16,390 nt of DNA, taken from Tannerellaceae bacterium. GTDB lineage: Bacteria > Bacteroidota > Bacteroidia > Bacteroidales > Tannerellaceae. The notes under the pieces were generated by a model. It did no database searches and was not told where the DNA came from. It saw nothing but the letters and a program-made list of their open reading frames with translations. Made by a program: the position numbers and the translations under genes. Every line of letters begins with the position of its first letter. Position 1 is the first letter of the stretch. Shown one piece after another: positions 1,726-16,390 of the stretch. Where the stretch lies: NCBI GenBank assembly GCA_031273385.1, contig JAISRY010000089.1:1-16390 (forward strand), in the 5' to 3' direction.

Positions 1726-3114
1726 ATGCGAAATAAGCTTTTCCTGACGTTCCTCCTGCCGCTCCTCCTCTTTTCCTACGGGAAAGCACAGACGGAGAGG
1801 TGGCAGGAGTTGGTCAACAGCAAGCGCTATGCCTCCGTCATCGCCGAGGCGAAGAGCCTCACGCCCGAAGACTCGACCGATTACCGGAAGATGAACCTGG
1901 TCGCCCAGGCGTATGAGGGGGTCTTGAAATACCGCGACGCCCTCGGCTTCTACCGGCATTGCTTCCAGTTGGATTCCACCAATATGGACAACCTGAACGC
2001 CTTGGCGCGCACGGCCACCAATCTGGGAAGAGCCGCCGAAGCCGAATCCTATTTCCGGAAAGTACTGGCAACGGACAGTACAAACTTTTACGCCCAATAC
2101 CAACTGGCACGGCTTTATCAACAGACGGGACGCTACGACGAAGCCATCGACACCTATTATACGCTCCTGGAGCAAGACCCCGAAAACGCTTTCCTGCTAC
2201 GGAGCATCGGCGACTGCCACGCACACTGGGAGGAGTGGGTCGGGGCGACGCTCAGCTACCGCCGCGCCTATATGTCGAACAAGGAGAACGCCGGACTGGG
2301 CAGCGCCCTGATCAATACGATGCTGCGCGTCGGGGGTGAATTTCTCCCCGAAGCCCTGGAGATCGCCGACACCGCGCTGTATTACAACCCGGGCAACCGC
2401 CTCTTGCGGCAAAACAAAGGGTTGGCGCTCTATATGAACCGGCGGTTTGCCGAAGCCGATACGCTCTACACCGAACTGCTGGCCGAGGGCGACTCGACCT
2501 ACCTGACGCTGAAGTTCTGCGGCTCCGCACGCTACTATGCCGGCCAACACTACAAGTCGATCGACCCGCTGGAATACGCCTACGCGATGGATCCGACGGT
2601 GGTGGAGGTCTGCCTGCTGCTGGGATCGGCGCTGGGAAAGACCTACGACCGCAAACGCGCCTACGCCCTGTTCGACGAGGCGGAAGAGTGCATGAAGCCC
2701 GATGAGTTCCTGTCCGGCCAACTCTCCATGTTCAAGGCCGAGCTGTTACAAAAGGACAACCGGAGGGACGAAGCCGCGCTCCTATACTACCGCCTCTGGC
2801 AAAAGAACAAAAAGCTGAGCCTGCTGGCCATGATCAGCAACCTGTACTACGCCTCCAACGTCTCGCAATACAAAAGCCCGGAGCGAAGACAACGCGCCAT
2901 CTTCAGCATCGTACTCTACCTCAACGAACTGATCGCCAAAGAAGACGACCTGACACAAACCCGCCACTACCGCCGCATCCTCAACTCCCTGCAGGAAGAC
3001 CTATTCTTCCGCAACGCAACGGAAGAGCCCATGCTCTCCCCCGACGGAAAAAAGAGCAGCCTCCCCCTCGACGACCTGAAAGCCCTCATCACAATAGTGA
3101 ATAGTGAACAGTGA
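1726..3114 (+). CDS. Secreted or periplasmic TPR-repeat protein
   Basis: This 462-residue protein begins with a clear signal peptide (charged MRNK, a leucine-rich core, cleavage likely after YGKAQ at residue 22). It contains several tetratricopeptide repeats, clearest at about 66-165, where units such as GRAAEAESYFRKVL and GRYDEAIDTYYTLL recur, and weaker copies follow. It starts 9 nt after the M56 peptidase stop and is probably the third gene of the operon. TPR proteins are scaffolds for protein binding, so it may act as a periplasmic partner of the membrane sensor; this is inference. The last codons (I-V-N-S-E-Q-stop) are encoded inside a GTGAATA/GTGAACA heptamer array, so the native C-terminus has been replaced or extended by repeat DNA. 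Confidence 0.85.
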   Translation: MRNKLFLTFLLPLLLFSYGKAQTERWQELVNSKRYASVIAEAKSLTPEDSTDYRKMNLVAQAYEGVLKYRDALGFYRHCFQLDSTNMDNLNALARTATNLGRAAEAESYFRKVLATDSTNFYAQYQLARLYQQTGRYDEAIDTYYTLLEQDPENAFLLRSIGDCHAHWEEWVGATLSYRRAYMSNKENAGLGSALINTMLRVGGEFLPEALEIADTALYYNPGNRLLRQNKGLALYMNRRFAEADTLYTELLAEGDSTYLTLKFCGSARYYAGQHYKSIDPLEYAYAMDPTVVEVCLLLGSALGKTYDRKRAYALFDEAEECMKPDEFLSGQLSMFKAELLQKDNRRDEAALLYYRLWQKNKKLSLLAMISNLYYASNVSQYKSPERRQRAIFSIVLYLNELIAKEDDLTQTRHYRRILNSLQEDLFFRNATEEPMLSPDGKKSSLPLDDLKALITIVNSEQ

Positions 3115-3152
3115 ATAGTGAACAGTGAATAGTGAATAGTGAATAGTGAATA
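3097..3152 (+). repeat. Heptamer tandem array, left edge of island A
   Basis: Eight perfect-length 7-bp units alternate between GTGAATA and GTGAACA. The first units are the last codons of the TPR gene, and the TGA at 3112-3114 inside the array is its stop. Because 7 is not a multiple of 3, the array reads through all frames within 21 bp and always meets a TGA or TAG on this strand. Confidence 0.95.
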
Positions 3153-3174
3153 GCTCCCCCTACCGAGGTTCAGT

Positions 3175-3276
3175 TACACAACTGTGTAGCCGGACGCACA
3201 CAATTGTGTAGCCCCGACTACACAATTGTGTAACCCCGACAACACAACTGTGTAGCCCCACCTACACAATAGTGTA
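3175..3276. repeat. Array A of five palindromes with exact 22-bp pitch
   Basis: Five 14-bp imperfect-to-perfect palindromes of the type TACACAATTGTGTA start at 3175, 3197, 3219, 3241 and 3263, exactly 22 bp apart. Arms ACACA/TGTGT are kept while the central two bases vary (AC, TT, TT, AC, TA). The 8-bp spacers are also related (GCCCCGAC, ACCCCGAC, GCCCCACC). This looks like a set of dimer-binding sites placed two helical turns apart, all on one face of the DNA. The function is not known to me. Confidence 0.93.
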
Positions 3277-3278
3277 TA

Positions 3279-3299
3279 GTGAACAACGAATAGTGAATA
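3279..3299 (+). repeat. Short heptamer array after palindrome array A
   Basis: Three 7-bp units (GTGAACA, ACGAATA, GTGAATA) follow the last palindrome without a gap of more than a few bases. Like the array at 3097-3152 it runs straight into AGCTCCC, which suggests that the heptamers, and possibly the palindromes between them, were duplicated as one block. Confidence 0.85.
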
Positions 3300-3424
3300 G
3301 CTCCCGTCCGAAAAAAAATAGCTCCCGACCTATTTAGAATAGCTCCCGTCCCGTTGAAAATAGCTCCCGTCCTATTTAGAAAAAGCCCGCATCCTATTTA
3401 AAAATAGCTTCTTGTCTATTCTAT
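3297..3424 (+). repeat. 21-bp tandem repeat, about six units
   Basis: ATAGCTCCCG begins at 3297, 3318, 3339 and 3360, an exact 21-bp pitch, followed by two degenerate units at about 3381 and 3404. Later units share TCCTATTTAGA in the second half. No reading frame of credible size uses it. The array lies between the palindrome array and the large inverted repeat. Confidence 0.85.
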
Positions 3425-3440
3425 TAGAATATCCTCATAC

Positions 3441-3937
3441 AAACGCTTTACTCTTTTTGCTATAAATTTTGCTCTTTTTCATACAAAATCGAATAAACAG
3501 AGCAAAAAACCCCCCAAATAAAGTTTAGCATTTTTTGCCTTCACTCCTTCACCTTTTCAGATAACGCGATGATTGATACCCAAATATGGTGAAGGCAGGG
3601 TGAAGGCAGGTGAAGGGACGGTGAAACGGGATACAAGGAAGGCTAACTTACCCTTATTGTAGAAATAAGCAGATCATAAATAATAGCCGGCCCCAAGATC
3701 AAAAATTCTCCAATTTACACAAGAAGATCAGCCAGCCCCCTCCGGCATCCCGTCCCCCCGTCCCTTCACCTCCCTTCACCCTCCCTTCACCACATTCAGT
3801 TATCACACAATACGTTACACAAAAGGTGAAGGAGTGAAGGCAAAAAAAAGAAAACTTTTCCTGGAGGCCTTTTTACCCTATTTATTCGATTTCGTAAGAA
3901 AAAGAACAAAATTTATAGCAAAAAGAGCAAAGCGCAA
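3441..3937. repeat. Large inverted repeat with two 192-bp arms
   Basis: The left arm is 3441-3632 and the right arm 3746-3937, with a 113-bp middle. When the right arm is read on the opposite strand, long blocks match: CTCTTTTTGCTATAAATTTT, then ATCGAATAAA, then TTTTTTGCCTTCACTCCTTC, then GGTGAAGG-type units and GTGAAGGGACGG. The match is imperfect but runs the full arm length with almost no gaps. It lies between two convergent TPR genes, so read-through RNA from either side could fold into a long hairpin. It could equally be a remnant non-autonomous mobile element. No ORF of note and no transposase is present. Confidence 0.88.
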
Positions 3938-3973
3938 GAGCGGCGAATATGCTAAAAAATAAACAAAAAGCTA

Positions 3974-4120
3974 CCGTCATTTCCAGACGATTACAATCAA
4001 GTGGTGTCCGTCATTGCGAACGCAGTGAAGCAATCCAGAGGTGCGTCTGTGTGTCCCACTCCTGGATTGCTTCACTGCGTTCGCAATGACGAATACTATT
4101 TGATTTACAGGTGATTGCGA
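3974..4120. repeat. Dispersed 147-bp hairpin element, copy A
   Basis: The core is a perfect 30-bp inverted repeat at 4009-4038 and 4062-4091 with a 23-nt loop. The arm begins CGTCATTGCGAACGCAGTGA. A second copy in the opposite orientation lies at 14486-14632; without gaps the two match at about 130 of 147 positions by my count, including the loop and flanks. Repeats with a GTCATTGCG core are, from memory, scattered through many bacterial genomes. It may work as a transcription stop between the convergent TPR genes. Confidence 0.92.
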
Positions 4121-4121
4121 C

Positions 4122-4177
4122 TGTTCACTGTTCACTGTTCACTATTCACTATTCACTGTTCACTATTCACTGTTCGC
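4122..4177 (-). repeat. Heptamer tandem array, right edge of island A
   Basis: Eight 7-bp units read TGTTCAC or TATTCAC on the + strand, that is GTGAACA/GTGAATA on the - strand; the outermost one is TGTTCGC. The - strand gene ends inside it: its stop TGA is at 4167-4169 and its last codons (D-S-E-Q) come from the array. Together with 3097-3152 it gives island A inverted heptamer ends. Confidence 0.95.
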
Positions 4178-6344
4178 TGTCTAACGCGTAGCGTAGTTGG
4201 TCGAGCATGAGGGGGACTTCGGTGGGTTCGATGCCGGCGATGACGAGGTCGGGGATGTCCAGGGTGAAATGTTTTTTGAATTGCTGGAAGTCTTCGTTTT
4301 CCATCTTGATGGCCAGTTTGTAGTAGGTGACGGCGGCTTTGATGTTCTGTAATGCCCATTCGGTATGGCCGGCGTTCAGGAGGTCTTGCATGATGGGCTG
4401 GTCGTTGATGATCTTATGGTAGTAGTTTCGCGCCTGGTCGTACTTGCCCGTAAGGAATGAACACCAGGCGATGGGACGCCAGGCTTTGTGGCTTTTGCCG
4501 TCCAGGTAGTCCGCTTTGAAGTAGTATTTCAGGGCTTCGCCGTACTCTTTCAGCTCCATGTAGCAATGGCCTATGTTGATGAGTACCGGTAGGTTGCCGG
4601 GGCTTAACTCTTCGTAGCGACGGTAATATTCGAGCGCTTTTGCGGGCTGTTTGAGCGTCCGGTAGCAGGCGGCGATACGGCGGATCAGCCATTTGCTTCC
4701 GGTATTCAACAGGTCGGCGCGAAGATAGGCCTCCAACGCCCCCTCGGCATCGCCGGTCATCTGTTTGCAGTAGCCCGTTTTCTGGAAAAGGATATCGTTG
4801 TCGCTGCTTTTCCGCGTCAGGGCGTCGTAGATCGTCAGGGCGTCGGTGAAATAGTTTTTCCGGAGATAATACTCGGCGATGGTGGCGAGGCTCTCTTCGT
4901 GGGCGATGTAGGGGCTGAGGATAGGCAGGTTATGGAAATCGAGCGGCAGGGTGAAGATGTCCTGGAAGTCGGGATGGTTGGGGTGCAGCTTGAAGAAGCG
5001 GTAGAGGTCTTGGATGTACTGTCCGGTGATGACCTCCACCTTACCCTTTTTGACGGCCAACTCCTCCTTATTTTGCCGGATCGCTTCCGATGCCTGTCCG
5101 TTGAACTGGGAGATCATCACCTCCCTCGTCTCTTTGGGTAGTTGCATCATGCTGAAGAACAGCGAATACTTGTCGGAATTACACATGAATGTGGCGGCCA
5201 GCATCGTTTCGAGTATCTCCCGTTCGCCGCTGTTCAGCTGGGCGGCGCCTCCGATCAGGGAGTGCCCGGGGATGAAGGGCAGGAACCAGTTGCCGATATC
5301 GCGGAAGAAAGGGAAACTCTTCAGGTGGATAAAGGTCGAATGCATCACATCGGCGCCCTCCTGCTGTAATTCGCTGAACTCTTCGATCTTTTTCCCCAGC
5401 GAACTGTCGGAGAGGATATCCTGCCATTCGGGGTTCATCTCTTCGCCGGGGTTTTCGAGCGCCAGGTCGCCCAGGTTGATCTTCCGGGTTATTTTCGGGT
5501 TGAGCCTGATCATTTCGGGGATGATTTCGTCTTGCAGTTTCCTGGTGATCTTTTCCGTCTCCCGCGAGAGGATAAACCGCAGGATGATGGTCTGTACCAT
5601 GGCGGTAAAGCCGGGCGACTCGGAGAGGATGGCCAGCCTCGTTTCGACCTGCCGGTAGAGCGGCGCCCGTTTGTGGTAGACATACAACGTCAGCAGGATA
5701 CCGATCATCGCGCGTACACGTACCTCTTCCGCCTCTTCCGGCAGGGAGGCGGCGTCGAAGAGCAGCAACAGCTTCTCCCGGTCAAAGGACGACAATAGCC
5801 CGAGGATCAAGGCCGACACCACCTGGCAGCCCGCCGTAAAAGGGAGGGCGCGGTCGCACAGGATCTCCTTGATGGCGGCGCTCTCTTCCGCCGTACAGGG
5901 ATCGGACGTCCAGATGAGGTGGAACAGCGAGGCGAGCGACAGGTCGTACTGTTTCTGGTTGTCGGTATCGGAATGCATCAGCAGCCGGGCATGCAGTTCG
6001 GGCAGGGAGACCTGCGGGAAGAGATGCCGGGAGCGCCTGTTGTTGTAATACGCGAGGGAGGATTCCGCGTCGCATACCTTCTGTTTGATCCGGTCGGCCA
6101 GCTCGTAGGCGGCGACCAGCAGGTCGCCGTATATCTTTTCCTGCATCGGGTCGCGCGCCCCCTCGATCCTGTAGCGGAGCATGTAGCGGTAGGTCTCCTG
6201 CAGTTCGTCCAGTTTGTCTTGAAAGGCATATTCGCGGCTGAGGGCGATGAGCGACTGTATCTCCCCGAAAGCGTCCCTCAGCTCCCGGTTGTCCAACGAA
6301 CCGGTAATCCGGTGATAGGCCTTGTTTATCTCTTGTTGTGTCAT
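4167..6344 (-). CDS. Large cytoplasmic TPR-repeat protein
   Basis: The 725-residue protein has no signal peptide or membrane segment. The N-terminal 480 residues are mostly helical with no domain I recognise. The C-terminal part, from about residue 490, holds tetratricopeptide repeats, for example FTDALTIYDALTRKSSDND, PAKALEYYRRYEELSPGN and YGEALKYYFKADYLDGKSH. I recall similar long TPR proteins as conserved hypotheticals in Bacteroidales; the role is unknown. It is transcribed alone, away from the helicase-like gene. The last residues (LDSEQ) come from the flanking heptamer array, so the original C-terminus may have been altered. The start ATG at 6342-6344 is the first in the frame and lies close behind a possible -7 box. 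Confidence 0.82.
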   Translation of the reverse strand: MTQQEINKAYHRITGSLDNRELRDAFGEIQSLIALSREYAFQDKLDELQETYRYMLRYRIEGARDPMQEKIYGDLLVAAYELADRIKQKVCDAESSLAYYNNRRSRHLFPQVSLPELHARLLMHSDTDNQKQYDLSLASLFHLIWTSDPCTAEESAAIKEILCDRALPFTAGCQVVSALILGLLSSFDREKLLLLFDAASLPEEAEEVRVRAMIGILLTLYVYHKRAPLYRQVETRLAILSESPGFTAMVQTIILRFILSRETEKITRKLQDEIIPEMIRLNPKITRKINLGDLALENPGEEMNPEWQDILSDSSLGKKIEEFSELQQEGADVMHSTFIHLKSFPFFRDIGNWFLPFIPGHSLIGGAAQLNSGEREILETMLAATFMCNSDKYSLFFSMMQLPKETREVMISQFNGQASEAIRQNKEELAVKKGKVEVITGQYIQDLYRFFKLHPNHPDFQDIFTLPLDFHNLPILSPYIAHEESLATIAEYYLRKNYFTDALTIYDALTRKSSDNDILFQKTGYCKQMTGDAEGALEAYLRADLLNTGSKWLIRRIAACYRTLKQPAKALEYYRRYEELSPGNLPVLINIGHCYMELKEYGEALKYYFKADYLDGKSHKAWRPIAWCSFLTGKYDQARNYYHKIINDQPIMQDLLNAGHTEWALQNIKAAVTYYKLAIKMENEDFQQFKKHFTLDIPDLVIAGIEPTEVPLMLDQLRYALDSEQ

Positions 6345-6523: not shown

Positions 6524-8107
6524 ATGCGTCAAGAGATTATTATTAGTATCCACAAGAATGAGTATTTGCCGGATGCACTGAAACGCCAGGGCTACGAAAC
6601 CCTCCCGTCCAACTGTATCATCAACAAACCTCTTTCGGGAATCGGTGCGACCTGTGGCGAGCTGGTTTCCGCCAGGAATACCCTCATTATCGAACCGAAC
6701 ATTCCCGCCGTCAAAGGGAAAGTGGCGAACCACAAGTATGTACTCGGCGTACACGACGGCGTGAGATTTGAATACATTTCCCGTTATTTGCAGCAGCCGG
6801 GGTGGAAGAAAGTCATCACGACGCCCGAATATTACCCGGTGGTCAAGAAGATCATGAACGAGTTGGCCGTCAATATGTTCGACACCTACTTCCTGCTGTT
6901 CGACGAATGTGAGAACGCGATATTCAATATGGAGTCCCATGCCGCCGCCGAAGAGCTGATGAGCGATTTCTTCCTTTTCGCGAACCGTTCGGTGATCTCA
7001 TCCTCCGCCGGCCTCTTTACCGAGGATATACGCTTGAAGAAGTACGATTTCTCCCTGCTGAGAATCCAGCCCGAATATGAAGACAGGCAGCCTCTCCGGC
7101 TGATTACGACCAACAACATCGCAGAATCGGTCATCTCGGCGATCGGGGCGTTGGAGGGTACCGTCTGCCTGTTCTGCCATTCTATCGATACGATCCATTC
7201 GCTTGTGCGCGACGTCCCGGAATTGAACAAAGGATATATCTTCTGCGACGAAGAGCCTGTCATGAGGCAGTATGACAACCGGTTGATCAAAAAAGAGACC
7301 GGCACGACAAAGCTGAGCCAGTACAACCTCTTTACCCTGCGCTACCATGCCGGCGTCGACATCGAAGCCTCCGCCCCTCCCCACATCATCATCATCACAG
7401 ATATGTCCGGGGAAAAGGAACCCTCCGTCATCGACCCGCAAACGGAAACGATGCAGATCGCCGGACGTTTCCGCAAGGGGGTAAAAAGCATTACCCACAT
7501 CAGCAATATACACCCCGGCATGAAATACCTGACGCCGCGGCAGGTATCCCTCTGGTTGCAAGGGGCGAAAAAGGTCTATACCGGATGGGTCAAGAAAAAG
7601 GGCTCCGCAAGCAATGACGGCATATCCGACCTCCTGCAGGAGGCGATAACGAAGAACCGGTATGTCCGGTTTATAGATAAAGACGGCAACCTCAATCCAC
7701 ACTATGTCGCCCGCTTTATTGAAAAGGAGAGGGTGAAAAGCCTCTACACAAAAGAGAAAGCGCTGCGCGACGCTTACGTGGCCACCGGCTATTTCGACGT
7801 CACCCATTCGCGCGAGGTACATATCTTCTCGGACGAAGACCGGATACACCTACACCAAAAGTATACCCAGGAGGGACGGAACCACCTGCTGCTTGCCCGC
7901 TTCGAACAACTGGAAGTGTTGCGCAAAGTACGCTCCACAAAAGCGCAGGAACGCTATCAATACCTGATCGACCGCTTGATCAACACCGCCTCGGATCGTT
8001 TCCTGTACGACTGTTACCTCAAATACGGCAGCGATTTCATCCGCAATGCCAGCTTCCGCGAACAATACATGCGGAAAGAGCTACACCATATCAGGGAAAA
8101 GAAATAG
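6524..8107 (+). CDS. SF2-helicase-like protein with altered Walker A motif
   Basis: The 527-residue protein shows superfamily 2 helicase motifs in the right order. Motif I is PLSGIGAT at 36-43, where the usual GSGKT-type lysine is replaced by Ala42. Others are a motif Ia-like segment at 52-66, TTPE at 99-102 (Ib), LLFDECE at 124-130 (motif II, D127-E128), SSSA at 159-162 (III), a motif IV-like strand at 212-229, HAGVDIEAS at 285-293 (V) and QIAGRFRKG at 311-319 (VI, with putative arginine finger R315/R317). The last 170 residues are charged and helical and are not recognised. The retained DE box and GRFRKG suggest nucleotide binding is not wholly lost, but loss of the P-loop lysine makes ordinary ATPase activity doubtful. 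It has its own promoter and stands alone. No nuclease, methylase or other defence partner adjoins it. Substrate and pathway unknown. Confidence 0.75.
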   Translation: MRQEIIISIHKNEYLPDALKRQGYETLPSNCIINKPLSGIGATCGELVSARNTLIIEPNIPAVKGKVANHKYVLGVHDGVRFEYISRYLQQPGWKKVITTPEYYPVVKKIMNELAVNMFDTYFLLFDECENAIFNMESHAAAEELMSDFFLFANRSVISSSAGLFTEDIRLKKYDFSLLRIQPEYEDRQPLRLITTNNIAESVISAIGALEGTVCLFCHSIDTIHSLVRDVPELNKGYIFCDEEPVMRQYDNRLIKKETGTTKLSQYNLFTLRYHAGVDIEASAPPHIIIITDMSGEKEPSVIDPQTETMQIAGRFRKGVKSITHISNIHPGMKYLTPRQVSLWLQGAKKVYTGWVKKKGSASNDGISDLLQEAITKNRYVRFIDKDGNLNPHYVARFIEKERVKSLYTKEKALRDAYVATGYFDVTHSREVHIFSDEDRIHLHQKYTQEGRNHLLLARFEQLEVLRKVRSTKAQERYQYLIDRLINTASDRFLYDCYLKYGSDFIRNASFREQYMRKELHHIREKK

Positions 8108-8109
8108 CA

Positions 8110-8144
8110 GTGGATAGTGAATAGTGGATAGTGAATAGTGAAAA
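8110..8144 (+). repeat. Heptamer tandem array after the helicase-like gene
   Basis: Five 7-bp units (GTGGATA, GTGAATA, GTGGATA, GTGAATA, GTGAAAA) begin 2 nt after the TAG stop of the helicase-like gene, in the same strand sense as that gene. A terminator hairpin follows 3 nt later. Here the array is next to, not inside, the coding region. Confidence 0.92.
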
Positions 8145-13813: not shown

Positions 13814-13827
13814 GAGGATAGTGAATA
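13814..13827 (+). repeat. Heptamer pair, left edge of island B
   Basis: GAGGATA and GTGAATA are two units of the same heptamer family, in the same sense as at the left edge of island A. The array is short and degenerate here and lies 4 bp upstream of the tRNA-Arg promoter rather than at a gene end. Confidence 0.65.
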
Positions 13828-13843
13828 GTGGTTCCTGTCTGGC

Positions 13844-13945
13844 TACACTATTGTGTCGTTGACGCTACACAGTTGTGTTGTGCGGGCTACACAGTTGTGT
13901 TGTCGGGGCTACACAATTGTGTAGCGCCAACGACACAATAGTGTA
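13844..13945. repeat. Array B of five palindromes with exact 22-bp pitch
   Basis: Five 14-bp palindromes start at 13844, 13866, 13888, 13910 and 13932, again exactly 22 bp apart, with arms ACACA/TGTGT. The 8-bp spacer GTCGGGGC is the reverse complement of GCCCCGAC in array A, so array B is the same array turned over. Its first unit (TACACTATTGTGTC) is the exact reverse complement of its last (GACACAATAGTGTA). Confidence 0.93.
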
Positions 13946-14290
13946 CGGGGGGAACAAGTGGTGAGGAGGGGGTCAAAAACGCATATTTCAACTTATATAC
14001 ACTTTTATTGCTTTTCTGTTTTTTTCTATAGAGTTTCATTTTTTGCTTTTTCTCCCCACTACTCCACCATTTACTATCTTTTTCTCTCTTTTAGAGAAAG
14101 GAAGAAAGAGAGTAATAAGAGTAGAAAGGGCTGATTGCCTGTTTTTTATGGATTCGTTAGGCTGTCATTTTTTGTTCGCCGGGAAATCGGTTTTTTTGAT
14201 AAAAAGTGGTAGGGAAGCCCTTTTTTCTTCCCCACTTTTTTCCTTTTTACCCCACCATTTTGCCCCTTTTTGGGCTGAAAACGGGGATTG
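13946..14290. other. AT-rich, purine/pyrimidine-skewed stretch of island B
   Basis: No gene is supported. The only open frame (14043-14324) begins with TTG, has low-complexity F/L-rich content and ends in the tandem repeat. A stretch near 14036-14075 (AGTTTC then ATTTTTTGC then CTCC..CACC) resembles the inverted-repeat arms of island A. A hairpin AAAAAGTGG/CCACTTTTT with inner GGGAAG/CTTCCC lies at 14201-14240. Confidence 0.7.
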
Positions 14291-14386
14291 GAAGACACTT
14301 AGAAGACACTTAGAAGACACTTAGAAGACACTTAGAAGACACTTAGAAGACACTTAGAAGACACTTAGAAGACACTTAGAAGACAC
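14291..14386. repeat. 11-bp tandem repeat, 8.7 copies
   Basis: GAAGACACTTA is repeated eight times without a single change at 14291-14378, followed by a partial copy to 14386. Perfect identity between units implies recent expansion or strong upkeep, and copy number is likely to vary between strains. No credible gene covers it. Confidence 0.97.
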
Positions 14387-14485
14387 AAAAGGGCAAAAAA
14401 AATCCGGAGCATGTTCCCTTGTTCCGGATAATTTATGATTGATGGATTGATGGATGGATGACACTGCGTTTATAATGACGACGAA

Positions 14486-14632
14486 TCGCAATCGTATGAA
14501 AATCAAATAGTATCCGTCATTGCGAACGCAGTGAAGCAATCCAGGAGTGCGACACATAGATACACCTCTGGATTGCTTCACTGCGTTCGCAATGACGGAT
14601 ACCACTTAATTATAATCAGCTGTAAATCACGC
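14486..14632. repeat. Dispersed 147-bp hairpin element, copy B
   Basis: This is the inverted copy of the element at 3974-4120. The stem is longer here: 35 bp, 14510-14544 pairing with 14568-14602, with a 23-nt loop. The arms are identical to copy A, while the loop and flanks differ at about 17 positions in all. It lies in the 3' region of lpdA, next to the heptamer array, as copy A lies next to the large TPR gene. Confidence 0.92.
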
Positions 14633-14696
14633 AATCGCCGTCATTTCCCTTTTTGATAAACCTGGTTTATTGGGCACTCACAATGACGATTACTAC

Positions 14697-14724
14697 TGTT
14701 CACTATTCACTGTTCACTATTCAC
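14697..14724 (-). repeat. Heptamer tandem array, right edge of island B
   Basis: Four units alternate TGTTCAC and TATTCAC on the + strand (GTGAACA/GTGAATA on the - strand). The lpdA stop TGA (14707-14709) and its last codons (V-N-S-E-Q) lie inside the array. Confidence 0.94.
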
Positions 14725-16077
14725 TGTCAGGATCGTGGCCTCTTTGAGTATTTCTCCGACGGTGGGATGGGGGAATACGAAAGAGGCGAGGTCGTTGGCT
14801 TTCAGCTCTTTTTCGATGGCTATGCCGGCGATGACGATGAGTTCGGAAGAGGGGTTGCCAAGGAGGTGTGCGCCGACGATGGTGTTGTCTTCCGAGAGGA
14901 TGAGTTTGCAGACGCCGTTCGTTAGCTCGTTTTCGGCGACAAAACGACCGGAGTAAGACATGGGGATCTTTGTTGTCCGGTAGGGTTTGCCGGCGGCTTG
15001 CAGTTGCTCTTCCGTTGCTCCGACGCCGGCCATTTCGGGGTTGGTATAGAGTACGCCGGGGATGGCTTTGTAGCTCATGCCGGCGGCCGGCTTGCCCAGG
15101 ATATGGTTTACGGCTACTTCGGCTTCGCTTACCGCCGTATGCGCCAGCAACGAATAGCCGGTGATGTCGCCGCAGGCATAGACGTTCGGCAGCGACGTTT
15201 GCATGTATTCGTTTACTTTCACGCCTTGACGGGAAACGTCCACCGCTAAGGTTTCCAGCCCGAACCCTTTCGTCACCGGGCGGCGGCCGACGCTAAGCAG
15301 GATCTTTTCCGCCTGGAGCGTAACGGTTTCCCCCTCCTTTTCGATGATGGTTGCCGTCCCGTTTATGGCGATGACTTTGTGTCCCAGATAGAAATTGACG
15401 CCTCTTTTTGTGTATTCGGCGCGTAACAGGGCGGCCAGCTCTTTATCCATTCCGTTCAGGATCTCGTCCAGCATCTCGACGACCTGAACCTCCGTACCGA
15501 GGCTGCCAAAGAAAGAGGCGAACTCCATGCCGATGACGCCGCCGCCGATGATCGTCAGCGACGCCGGCAGCTCTTTTGTTTGCAGGACTTCGCGGCTCGT
15601 CCAGTATCCGGAGGTATCCAGTCCGGGGATGGGGGGGACGACCGGTTCGGAGCCGGTACAGAGGATCAGGTGTTTGGCTTCGTAGAGCGCTTCGCCTGAG
15701 GCGATGGTCAGCGTGCCGTCCGTTGCGCGGCCTTTTATTACGGCTTCGCCATTGACCGTCAGCACGCCATGTTCGGTCATCTTCATCCGGATGCCGGCGA
15801 CTAATTTCTTGACCACTTTGTTTTTGCGGGCGATGATTTTGGGCAGGTCGAAAGAGGCGTTCTCAGCGCCTATGGCATATTTCGACGCCTGCCTGACCGT
15901 ATCGTATACCTTGGCGGAATACAGCAGCGTTTTTGTCGGTATGCACCCCTCGTTCAGGCATACCCCGCCCAACGATTCCTTTTCAAATAACACACACGAG
16001 AGGCCGTTTGCCCCCGCTCTTTCCGCCGCAGTATAGCCTGCCGGACCGCCTCCGATGATTGCCAGATCGTATTTCAT
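14707..16077 (-). CDS. lpdA: Dihydrolipoyl dehydrogenase (E3)
   Basis: This flavoprotein reoxidises dihydrolipoyl groups with NAD+ in the cytoplasm. The FAD motif GGGPAG is at 9-14, the redox disulfide CLNEGC at 40-45 within GGVCLNEGCIPTK, the NAD-binding GGGVIGMEFASFFG near 170, the second FAD motif VYACGDITG near 300, and the catalytic pair H437/E442 in HPTVGE. I place the start at the ATG 16075-16077 (456 residues, MKYDLAIIGG). The frame opens earlier at a TTG, but the extra nine residues are not typical and overlap the A-rich leader. The last five residues, VNSEQ, come from the heptamer array and have no counterpart I know in E3 enzymes. It starts 10 nt after the upstream hydrolase gene, so it is probably co-transcribed with it. 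No E1/E2 or glycine-cleavage genes are present. Confidence 0.95.
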   Translation of the reverse strand: MKYDLAIIGGGPAGYTAAERAGANGLSCVLFEKESLGGVCLNEGCIPTKTLLYSAKVYDTVRQASKYAIGAENASFDLPKIIARKNKVVKKLVAGIRMKMTEHGVLTVNGEAVIKGRATDGTLTIASGEALYEAKHLILCTGSEPVVPPIPGLDTSGYWTSREVLQTKELPASLTIIGGGVIGMEFASFFGSLGTEVQVVEMLDEILNGMDKELAALLRAEYTKRGVNFYLGHKVIAINGTATIIEKEGETVTLQAEKILLSVGRRPVTKGFGLETLAVDVSRQGVKVNEYMQTSLPNVYACGDITGYSLLAHTAVSEAEVAVNHILGKPAAGMSYKAIPGVLYTNPEMAGVGATEEQLQAAGKPYRTTKIPMSYSGRFVAENELTNGVCKLILSEDNTIVGAHLLGNPSSELIVIAGIAIEKELKANDLASFVFPHPTVGEILKEATILTVNSEQ

Positions 16078-16087
16078 ATTTATTGTC

Positions 16088-16390
16088 CTATTTATTGTTA
16101 TCAAATGAATTGCCTTGTTTTGTCCATGTCCAGTCGTTGTCGAAATAACCGGCGGCCTCTACGCCGGCCAGTCCGTCGCGCAACATGCCGGCGCGATAGA
16201 TGACGAGGTCGGGGAAGCCGGTAATGCCGGAGATGTAATTGTTCGGGGAGGTGGCGCGCATACCGGCGTCACCCGTCCCGGCCACAACGCCTACCGATGC
16301 CGTATCGCTTTCGGGGTGGGGGTAGATGAAGCAGGTTGCCAGGTCGTCGCCCCGGTACGCATGGCCGCCTGCGGTGATTTCCCCGTTGCC
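16088..16390 (-). CDS. C-terminal part of a probable alpha/beta-hydrolase (partial)
   Basis: The last 100 codons of a gene that continues beyond the right edge; the frame is open to position 16390 and ends at TAG 16088-16090. Visible are IYPHPESDTASVGVVAGTG, then SGITGFPDLVIYRAGMLRDG, then VEAAGYFDNDW. This pattern resembles the C-terminal domain of Bacteroidetes esterase/prolyl-oligopeptidase-like proteins as I remember them. The catalytic region lies outside the window, so the family is tentative. It precedes lpdA by 10 nt on the same strand. Confidence 0.6.
   Translation of the reverse strand, partial: GNGEITAGGHAYRGDDLATCFIYPHPESDTASVGVVAGTGDAGMRATSPNNYISGITGFPDLVIYRAGMLRDGLAGVEAAGYFDNDWTWTKQGNSFDNNK

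Follow-up and report, generated by a model that had tools for sequence, protein, structure and literature searches.

The two intergenic islands described here, island A (3093–4180) and island B (13817–14727) of the window (the whole 16,390-nucleotide stretch of Tannerellaceae DNA that was analysed), are best read, with a probability of about 55%, as REP/MITE-like mosaics of non-coding hairpin repeats that grow as nested quasi-palindromes. Two sets of modules make up such islands. Set 1 consists of a palindrome array (P), a repeat block (L) and an AT-rich body (A), or of P and another body (B); set 2 consists of heptamer arrays (H) and the hairpins X and K in the concentric arrangement H>X>K[C]<K<X<H, where C is a further body. 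The order common to both islands is that of two repeat sets landing in the same long gaps and not that of one architecture. On our best reading the new parts are the polarity of the heptamers and the 22 bp pitch of the palindromes, and the remainder fits the known REP/MITE-like kind.

Layout of the two islands

Island A opens with an H array, (GTGAAYA)n (3093–3153, + strand; TRF period 7, 8.7 copies), which is oriented into the gap and provides the stop codon of the + gene at 1726–3114 (...IVNSEQ*). It is followed on the + strand by P (3175–3276), with five palindromes of the ACACNNNNGTGT kind at an exact 22 bp pitch, a short heptamer remnant in the interval between P and L (3277–3298), L (3295–3381), a 21 bp repeat block (AATAGCTCCCGTCC...) that often adjoins P, and body A (3444–3934), an AT-rich giant quasi-palindrome of ~490 bp belonging to set 1. 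Body A contains two arm pairs, 3444–3557/3821–3934 (85%) and 3562–3632/3747–3817 (80%). The K hairpin (3975–4120, +) is built from two facing CGTC...GCAATCCA units with a 13 nt loop between them and has its arms at 3995–4043/4057–4105 (88%). An H array on the − strand (4120–4180), at the 3′ end of the − gene 4167–6344, closes the island. Heptamer arrays are also found alone: an H array without an island lies at 8109–8142 (+), at the 3′ end of the + gene 6524–8107.

Island B starts with a short heptamer remnant (13817–13831, +), followed by a P of five palindromes at 22 bp pitch in the sense opposite to that of island A (13844–13945, −) and by body B (13960–14486, +), which comprises an AT-rich part (13960–14290), an 11-mer array (GAAGACACTTA; 14291–14386, 8.7 copies) and a tail. 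The second copy of K (14486–14631, −) is inverted and 89% identical to the first, and X, a second hairpin oriented toward K (14634–14687, −), separates it from an H array (14695–14727, −) at the 3′ end of the − gene 14707–16104 (...TVNSEQ*).

An earlier note on this DNA had named most of these parts, its list omitting L. They exist and are multi-copy: both islands were located, and the heptamer pattern (with two or fewer mismatches) occurs at 103 + 129 places in the genome, compared with 0 for a reversed control, and the palindrome-pair pattern at 38, compared with 0 in the control. Heptamers had been placed at both ends of each island; island A has full arrays, whereas the left end of island B retains only ~2 units. 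The outer heptamers do form inverted ends, as all seven of the seven neighbouring array pairs without an intervening gene face each other. A TTTTTTGC..CTCC..CACC-like stretch is present in the AT-rich part of both islands, but the AT-rich stretches themselves, taken by the earlier note for one common module, are different elements, each with its own relatives in the genome. P and K had been described as turned over in island B. P does differ in sense, but its sense relative to body B is opposite to that relative to body A in P-L-A (judged from the linkers by eye), so that its turning over marks two types of arrangement; K is almost self-inverse, and its turning over therefore tells little.

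Linkage and polarity of the modules

Co-occurrence was evaluated over 330 gaps of a module-rich sample, the contigs of which were selected for holding modules, against 2000 length-matched permutations. Palindrome arrays were located with a loose scan, a strict one having missed imperfect arrays. Within set 1, P–L (25 versus 7.7 expected), P–A (23 versus 6.5), L–A (22 versus 5.6) and P–B (11 versus 2.8) co-occur, as do K–X (45 versus 20.1), K–C (8 versus 2.8), H–X (16 versus 8.2) and H–K (13 versus 7.3) within set 2. Across the sets, H–P (7 versus 5.3, p = 0.26) and H–A (4 versus 3.7, p = 0.52) are found about as often as space predicts. The proposal that islands are assembled from parts by rules is borne out, and some modules co-occur far beyond chance, but the fixed four-part architecture is rejected, because H is linked to neither P nor A and the places of K and L vary. 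Body A lies within 750 bp of P in 23 of the 45 P arrays in the sample, with L between P and A in 15 of these, on the far side of P in five and absent in three; ten of the 45 abut body B and 12 have neither body. Depending on the island, K flanks P-L-A at its A end or its P end, or sits between L and A; K/X is between L and A in islands L007 and L129, and island L143, with heptamers on both sides, has the order H X K X L P A H. Body C sits in the loop of K in islands L144 and L216, and the latter is self-inverse across 813–1383 at 92.4%. X is oriented toward K in 50 of the 54 X matches with a K within 160 bp (26 more have no K within that distance). Nested-palindrome modules occupy 28% of the intergenic bases of the module-rich sample.

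The repeat elements are presumably mobile, and ordinary MITE insertion is a possible, if doubtful, account of the islands: K/X and P-L-A would be non-autonomous transposons moved in trans, and nesting and order would be by-products of insertion into safe gaps. P-L-A is multi-copy and intergenic, as a MITE would be; 11 copies, chosen for showing that order, align along their length, and what precedes the first palindrome on its left is unrelated among them, an observation that also favours the nested quasi-palindrome reading. One P-A copy of this genome has a counterpart in L073 (titled Prevotella sp.) with 93% identity across 496 bp, and the nearest known kind, the BrickBuilt MITE of Porphyromonas gingivalis, carries tandem repeats between a leader and a tail in the accessible part of its description. 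However, no terminal inverted repeats were seen by eye in the viewed part of the 11-copy alignment, the inverted repeat of the left end not being visible at the right end, the boundary of which is soft. The Y1 tyrosine transposase (PF01797, the only transposase family covered) is matched in 21 of 40 genomes, with no match in this genome (70% complete) or in the related genome G013 (84% complete). REPs driven by a RAYT were provisionally set aside on the same search of these two incomplete genomes. MITE insertion alone also leaves the polarity of the heptamers and the matching of arms unexplained.

In total, 62 of 65 heptamer arrays, drawn from three families, are directed into the gap and away from the gene edge closest to them (binomial, 1.2e-15); this count includes as 5′ antisense three antisense arrays, 45–70 bp from called starts, that had first been classed as inside an ORF. 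Selection on stop and start codons could by itself be proposed as the cause. Read as triplets, GTGAAYA and GAGAGTT contain stops when followed outward at 3′ ends but are open the other way, and ORFs run through antisense arrays. Arrays at gene 5′ ends follow the rule too, however, among them 15 of GTGAAYA oriented away from the gene, and AATTACG is stop-free outward, yet its arrays are outward in 5/5 cases. The argument from AATTACG is thin, since in other genomes it is outward in 1/2. As the sole cause, stop codons leave the 5′ arrays and AATTACG uncovered, and we consider a purely codon-based polarity improbable.

Arm matching and possible mode of growth

The two arms of body A resemble each other more within copies (identity 0.891) than between copies (0.804; 12 copies, permutation p = 1e-4). 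Their mismatches in 16 copies comprise 70 G-U, 77 A-C and 113 others, with no G-U bias. Together, these observations suggest that matching of the arms of body A is maintained at the DNA level. For the arms of K, of which the sample holds 25 full two-armed copies as facing dimers, identity is no higher within copies (0.918) than between them (0.925; p = 0.94), the copies being nearly alike.

Arrays and hairpins might alternatively be regulatory, acting as terminators or RNA-processing signals at gene ends under transcript-level selection. Body A is predicted to fold into very stable RNA structures from either strand, and by their sequence the heptamers place a stop in every frame at 3′ ends. 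Among 64 gene-flanked P arrays of other Bacteroidales, convergent gaps are favoured (21 arrays in 10,635 of 53,271 intergenic bases) and divergent gaps avoided (nine in 13,778 bases), with 34 in tandem gaps; 11 more arrays are at edges and three inside ORFs. We nevertheless regard a regulatory origin as unlikely. The even G-U and A-C mismatches imply that no transcribed strand is favoured in body A, the 15 GTGAAYA arrays noted above point away from gene 5′ ends, and the P arrays of this genome are divided evenly between convergent and divergent gaps (four each, 16 at edges). Rfam returned only two tRNAs above the gathering score, and a single RNA element with a conserved fold was discarded on this result and on the lack of G-U bias in body A.

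The P arrays could also bind a dimeric protein at sites two helical turns apart, for example a nucleoid or partition protein. Their pitch is exactly 22 bp while their centres vary, and a scan of 84,980 species gave 79 stretches, all titled Bacteroidales except one titled only Bacteroidetes; among the carriers are isolates of Bacteroides caecigallinarum, in which 22 bp arrays are numerous. The same pitch, however, is kept by unrelated palindromes (GAGTATGCATACTC and, in G013, TCGACAGTTGTCGA) and so is not needed by one sequence-specific protein. Protein binding is the least probable of the explanations considered. CRISPR arrays require identical repeats and unrelated spacers, whereas here the copies, like the linkers, are similar but imperfect.

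Returning to the nested quasi-palindromes, new hairpin elements would be gained beside older ones or inside their loops, so that the gap would expand as a nested quasi-palindrome with inward-pointing heptamer arrays as its outermost arms, where the island meets the genes. The arms of the giant palindromes would most likely be matched by hairpin-templated template switching during replication, and expansion may be tolerated because the lineage would lack the hairpin nuclease SbcCD. No SbcD above the cut-off was found in the three congeneric genomes that have many repeat matches (this genome, G013 and G004; 70, 84 and 87% complete, respectively), nor in four others of the genus in which repeat copies are not numerous. 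An empty-site comparison of island A proved unusable, as its left gene does not adjoin the gene on its other side at the loci of relatives; the absence of the island from G013 could thus be owing to rearrangement. More tentatively, Bacteroidales without SbcCD may build concentric palindromes by hairpin capture at the dyad, template-switch correction of the arms and polarity-locked heptamer feet, in which case the 22 bp pitch would come from this DNA process and not from a binding protein.

Relation to known repeats and significance

The available part of the BrickBuilt description gives 19 copies in P. gingivalis with 23 nt tandem repeats and 12 nt IS5-like terminal inverted repeats (PMC4596501). 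As far as that part goes, the present elements resemble it in being intergenic in Bacteroidales, in having tandem repeats flanked by other conserved parts and in lacking an internal transposase, and differ in that each 22 bp unit is palindromic, ends of that type were not seen and several sets of repeats share the islands (PMC4596501). The CGTC repeats of Bacteroidetes are described, in the portion of the source at hand, as dimers that have no dedicated transposase and whose partners may be separated by inserted DNA (PMC3733652). K is comparable to these CGTC-tagged REP dimers, so far as that portion describes them, in its facing units, CGTC end, AT stem start and CCA tail, all three sequence features being present in the unit CGTCATTGC...GCAATCCA at 4009 (PMC3733652). 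Unlike them, as there described, it has no simple 8–9 bp stem with a 4–5 nt loop (the minimum-energy fold of the unit pairs otherwise, and the outer ATTGC/GCAAT gives 5 bp), it is wrapped by X and heptamers and its loop can hold a palindrome of ~200 bp (PMC3733652). Among the literature matches listed for the K stem sequence, none looks related by title.

Direct repeats of the heptamer TAACTGA occur in Beggiatoaceae, Cyanobacteria and some Bacteroidetes and, according to the accessible text, likewise form seven-base intergenic arrays at gene edges in which every frame of one reading direction has stops (PMC4679880). In the Beggiatoaceae genome treated in that text most arrays point toward a start codon, whereas here they point away from genes; the sequence also differs, and here the heptamers bound hairpin islands (PMC4679880). 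The dRS3-bounded mosaic elements of Neisseria are, in the part of their description available, likewise intergenic mosaics of repeats with short inverted repeats at their borders. They belong to another phylum and, to our knowledge, have neither heptamer ends nor 22 bp palindrome arrays. dRS3 itself is counted as a CGTC repeat in the portion of that source at hand (PMC3733652).

In the literature searched, no published description of the heptamer polarity or of the constant 22 bp pitch was recognized. Both, the latter in unrelated palindromes, are simple regularities that can be checked. For annotation, sense heptamers append VNSEQ tails to proteins, and antisense heptamers hold reading frames open, so that annotated starts may lie too far upstream. 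Long palindromes are normally unstable in bacterial chromosomes, and a lineage rich in arm-matched nested palindromes would offer a natural test case for the way in which palindromes arise, persist and vanish.

Contents of the islands and their copies

Islands A (3097–4177) and B (13814–14724) contain all of the parts listed in an earlier note, which had described them as one architecture of four modules in fixed order with heptamers as inverted ends; island A additionally carries a 21-bp repeat block (L) and island B a second hairpin (X). The modules are grouped here into two sets: the first comprises the 22-bp palindrome array (P), L, a giant palindrome of ~490 bp (body A) and another AT-rich body (body B), and the second the heptamer arrays (H), the hairpins X and K, and a body (C) in the K loop, with the concentric order H>X>K[C]<K<X<H. 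The island flanks resemble ordinary genes, including a tRNA gene, and from their translations we take the flanking genes to encode TPR-like proteins and a lipoamide-dehydrogenase-like protein.

The assembly that holds the window (as contig C184) comprises 2,306,640 bases in 251 contigs and is 70% complete. Allowing up to two mismatches, heptamers were found genome-wide at 103 places in forward and 129 in reverse orientation, and the reversed control gave 0. Palindrome pairs occupy 38 places (control, 0). Counting both strands, there are at least 102 matches to K (40 of 121 candidates scored), at least 101 to body A with L (40 of 116) and at least 54 to body B (40 of 141). Body B includes 8.7 copies of the 11-mer GAAGACACTTA (14291–14386; 100% TRF match), and other 11-bp repeats occur in body A-like places.

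Modules were counted in 80 contig stretches (862,298 bases with the window), nearly all picked for carrying a module, and genes were called with a scripted simple hexamer model. In this module-biased sample, modules account for 27.8% of intergenic bases and are present in 37 of 47 internal gaps of at least 400 bp, compared with 11 of 149 gaps of 30–199 bp. Within 400 bp of the stretch ends there are 275 of the 858 module matches (overlapping matches counted; 7.5% expected), as if the repeats had broken the assembly.

Two linked sets of modules

To evaluate co-occurrence, 330 intergenic regions, of which 106 are at contig ends, were compared with 2000 permutations made among regions binned by unmasked length. 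The pairs K–X, P–L, P–A, L–A, P–B, K–C, H–X, H–K and H–C exceed expectation in these regions, K–A, K–L and X–L do so slightly (p of about 0.016), and H–P (7 versus 5.31, p = 0.26), H–A (4 versus 3.68, p = 0.52) and H–B (2 versus 1.55, p = 0.48) do not. At least three of the four module classes share a gap in 25 cases (15 expected) and all four in five (1.3 expected), excesses that are overstated because the null breaks the P–A link. The parts are thus linked within two sets, and the sets meet each other at nearly the rate predicted by space, so that the density-level co-occurrence that the earlier note had named as evidence against its claim applies to half of the comparison.

Body A lies within 750 bp of 23 of the 45 P arrays in the sample, with L between P and A in 15 of these, beyond P in five and absent from three; body B adjoins ten arrays, and the remaining 12, three of them with L, have no body in reach. 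In the listed portions of 11 aligned copies, chosen for showing the order P, L, A, five P unit positions are followed by approximately four 21-bp L units, a variable stretch and the giant palindrome; the sequences preceding the first palindrome are unrelated. In the 16 regions with both P and K, the placement of K varies: the hairpin lies to the side of A, to that of P, or separates L from A. The observation in the earlier note is sound; its reading as a single fixed architecture is not borne out, as there are two linked repeat sets with variable positions of K and L.

Heptamer polarity, concentric hairpins and pitch

Polarity was counted for sample arrays of at least three heptamer units, with arrays lacking a gene within 400 bp classed as gene-less. 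The 43 GTGAAYA arrays are located at gene 3′ ends in sense (25), at 5′ ends in antisense (15) or at 5′ ends in sense (two), with none at a 3′ end in antisense and one gene-less. The GAGAGTT arrays (n = 19) are distributed as 13 3′ sense, four 5′ antisense, one 5′ sense and one gene-less, and the AATTACG arrays (n = 5) as three 3′ sense and two 5′ antisense. Pooling the three families, 62 of 65 arrays are directed away from the nearest gene edge and into the gap, and eight of ten arrays in other genomes obey this rule. GAGAGTT and AATTACG are further families, in contigs of the window's own genome, that share the GTGAAYA polarity (for example, locus L012 7108–7177, L143 11285–11340 and L129 5669–5696). 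Neighbouring arrays without an intervening gene face each other in all seven pairs, with spacings as small as 17 bp (L206), and arrays also occur singly (window 8109–8142). In all 24 arrays that have a K, X or C within 600 bp, the closest such element is on the pointed-to side, an agreement that follows partly from the gene-edge rule; another 19 arrays have none in that range. For P, L, A or B the count is 8 of 12. Open reading frames run through antisense heptamers at L144 8342–9604, L205 2315–3640 and L221 421–3435; since these heptamers lack stop codons and leave the frames open, the gene starts were likely called too early.

The X hairpin is directional, being aimed at K in 50 of the 54 X matches with K within 160 bp, at a distance of 22–24 bp in 25 of the 54; another 26 X matches have no K in reach. 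Body C occupies the K loop in L216 and L144. The L216 island is palindromic over 813–1383 (92.4% matching) and the window islands are less regular, with island A self-inverse over 3405–3973 (78%) and island B over K only.

In 58 contigs not selected by the palindrome-pair pattern, and hence without adjacent 22-bp pairs, the seven spacings of up to 100 bp between neighbouring ACACNNNNGTGT sites are each a multiple of 22: one is of 44 bp, three are of 66 bp and three of 88 bp. The unrelated palindrome GAGTATGCATACTC is arrayed at 22-bp pitch in the same genome (L006 5876–5955 and L007 3245–3323). A third palindrome arrayed at 22 bp, TCGACAGTTGTCGA with ACAGCTGT-like linkers, takes the place of island A in another genome of the genus (G013, L147), behind the homologue of window gene 4167–6344, the right neighbour of island A. 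The commonest TRF periods in the sample are 22 (92 rows), 7 (86), 21 (73), 11 (58) and 9 (46). Palindromes with a 41-bp period occur at three places among the same-genus loci L147–L170. Stand-alone ACACNNNNGTGT arrays in L049–L124 (Bacteroides caecigallinarum and others) are commoner in convergent than in divergent gaps, and some have outer flanks that complement each other, at 1 to 11 of 14 bases.

Matched arms, SbcD and distribution

The arms of body A are more alike within a copy (mean identity 0.891) than are left and right arms of different copies (0.804; 12 copies, permutation p = 1e-4). Mismatched pairs in 16 copies comprise 70 G–U, 77 A–C and 113 others, and given the similar G–U and A–C counts neither strand looks like selected RNA. 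The K arms show no within-copy matching (0.918 within versus 0.925 between, p = 0.94), but the K core hardly varies. Template switching at quasipalindromes would explain how the body A arms are kept matched (cf. the review PMC7999016).

In E. coli, SbcCD removes structures formed by inverted repeats, according to PMC3733652. Among 18 genomes of the genus, an SbcD match above the TIGR00619 cut-off is present in 11 and absent from G000 (the window's own), G003, G004, G007, G013, G014 and G016. Matches to window 3170–3960 number 96 in G000, 36 in G013, 29 in G004 (to L and a heptamer remnant, among the matches listed), one each in G006 and G009, and none in 13 genomes. G013 is the nearest of the 17 other genomes (81%, one protein compared). 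The three repeat-rich genomes, G000, G013 and G004 (70, 84 and 87% complete), all lack SbcD above the cut-off; the chance of all three falling among the SbcD-less genomes is 35/816, about 0.04 (by hand).

A scan of 84,980 species, with a pattern that itself fixes the pitch and outer bases and thus tests distribution only, returned a three-unit palindrome array in 79 stretches, titled Bacteroides, Phocaeicola, Parabacteroides, Prevotella, Paraprevotella, Bacteroidaceae, Prevotellaceae, Tannerellaceae and, once, just Bacteroidetes. Counting the window's own genome, palindrome pairs occur in seven and the exact heptamer pattern in five of 100 genomes; K is widespread, and of 296 genomes sampled from the phylum 27 have its stem pattern. 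A P–A copy in L073 (4437–4932), a record that bears the title Prevotella sp. Kf353_bin95, shares 93% identity over 496 bp with a copy in this genome. For one L073 gene, the match to G013 is 76% over 324 aligned residues, compared with 40% for the best own-genome match in the sample. This combination hints at exchange, but mis-binning, or orthologues missing from the own-genome sample, may account for it. The islands are a rule-bound mosaic of two linked repeat sets, in which heptamers obey a polarity rule, the pitch is constant and arms are matched.
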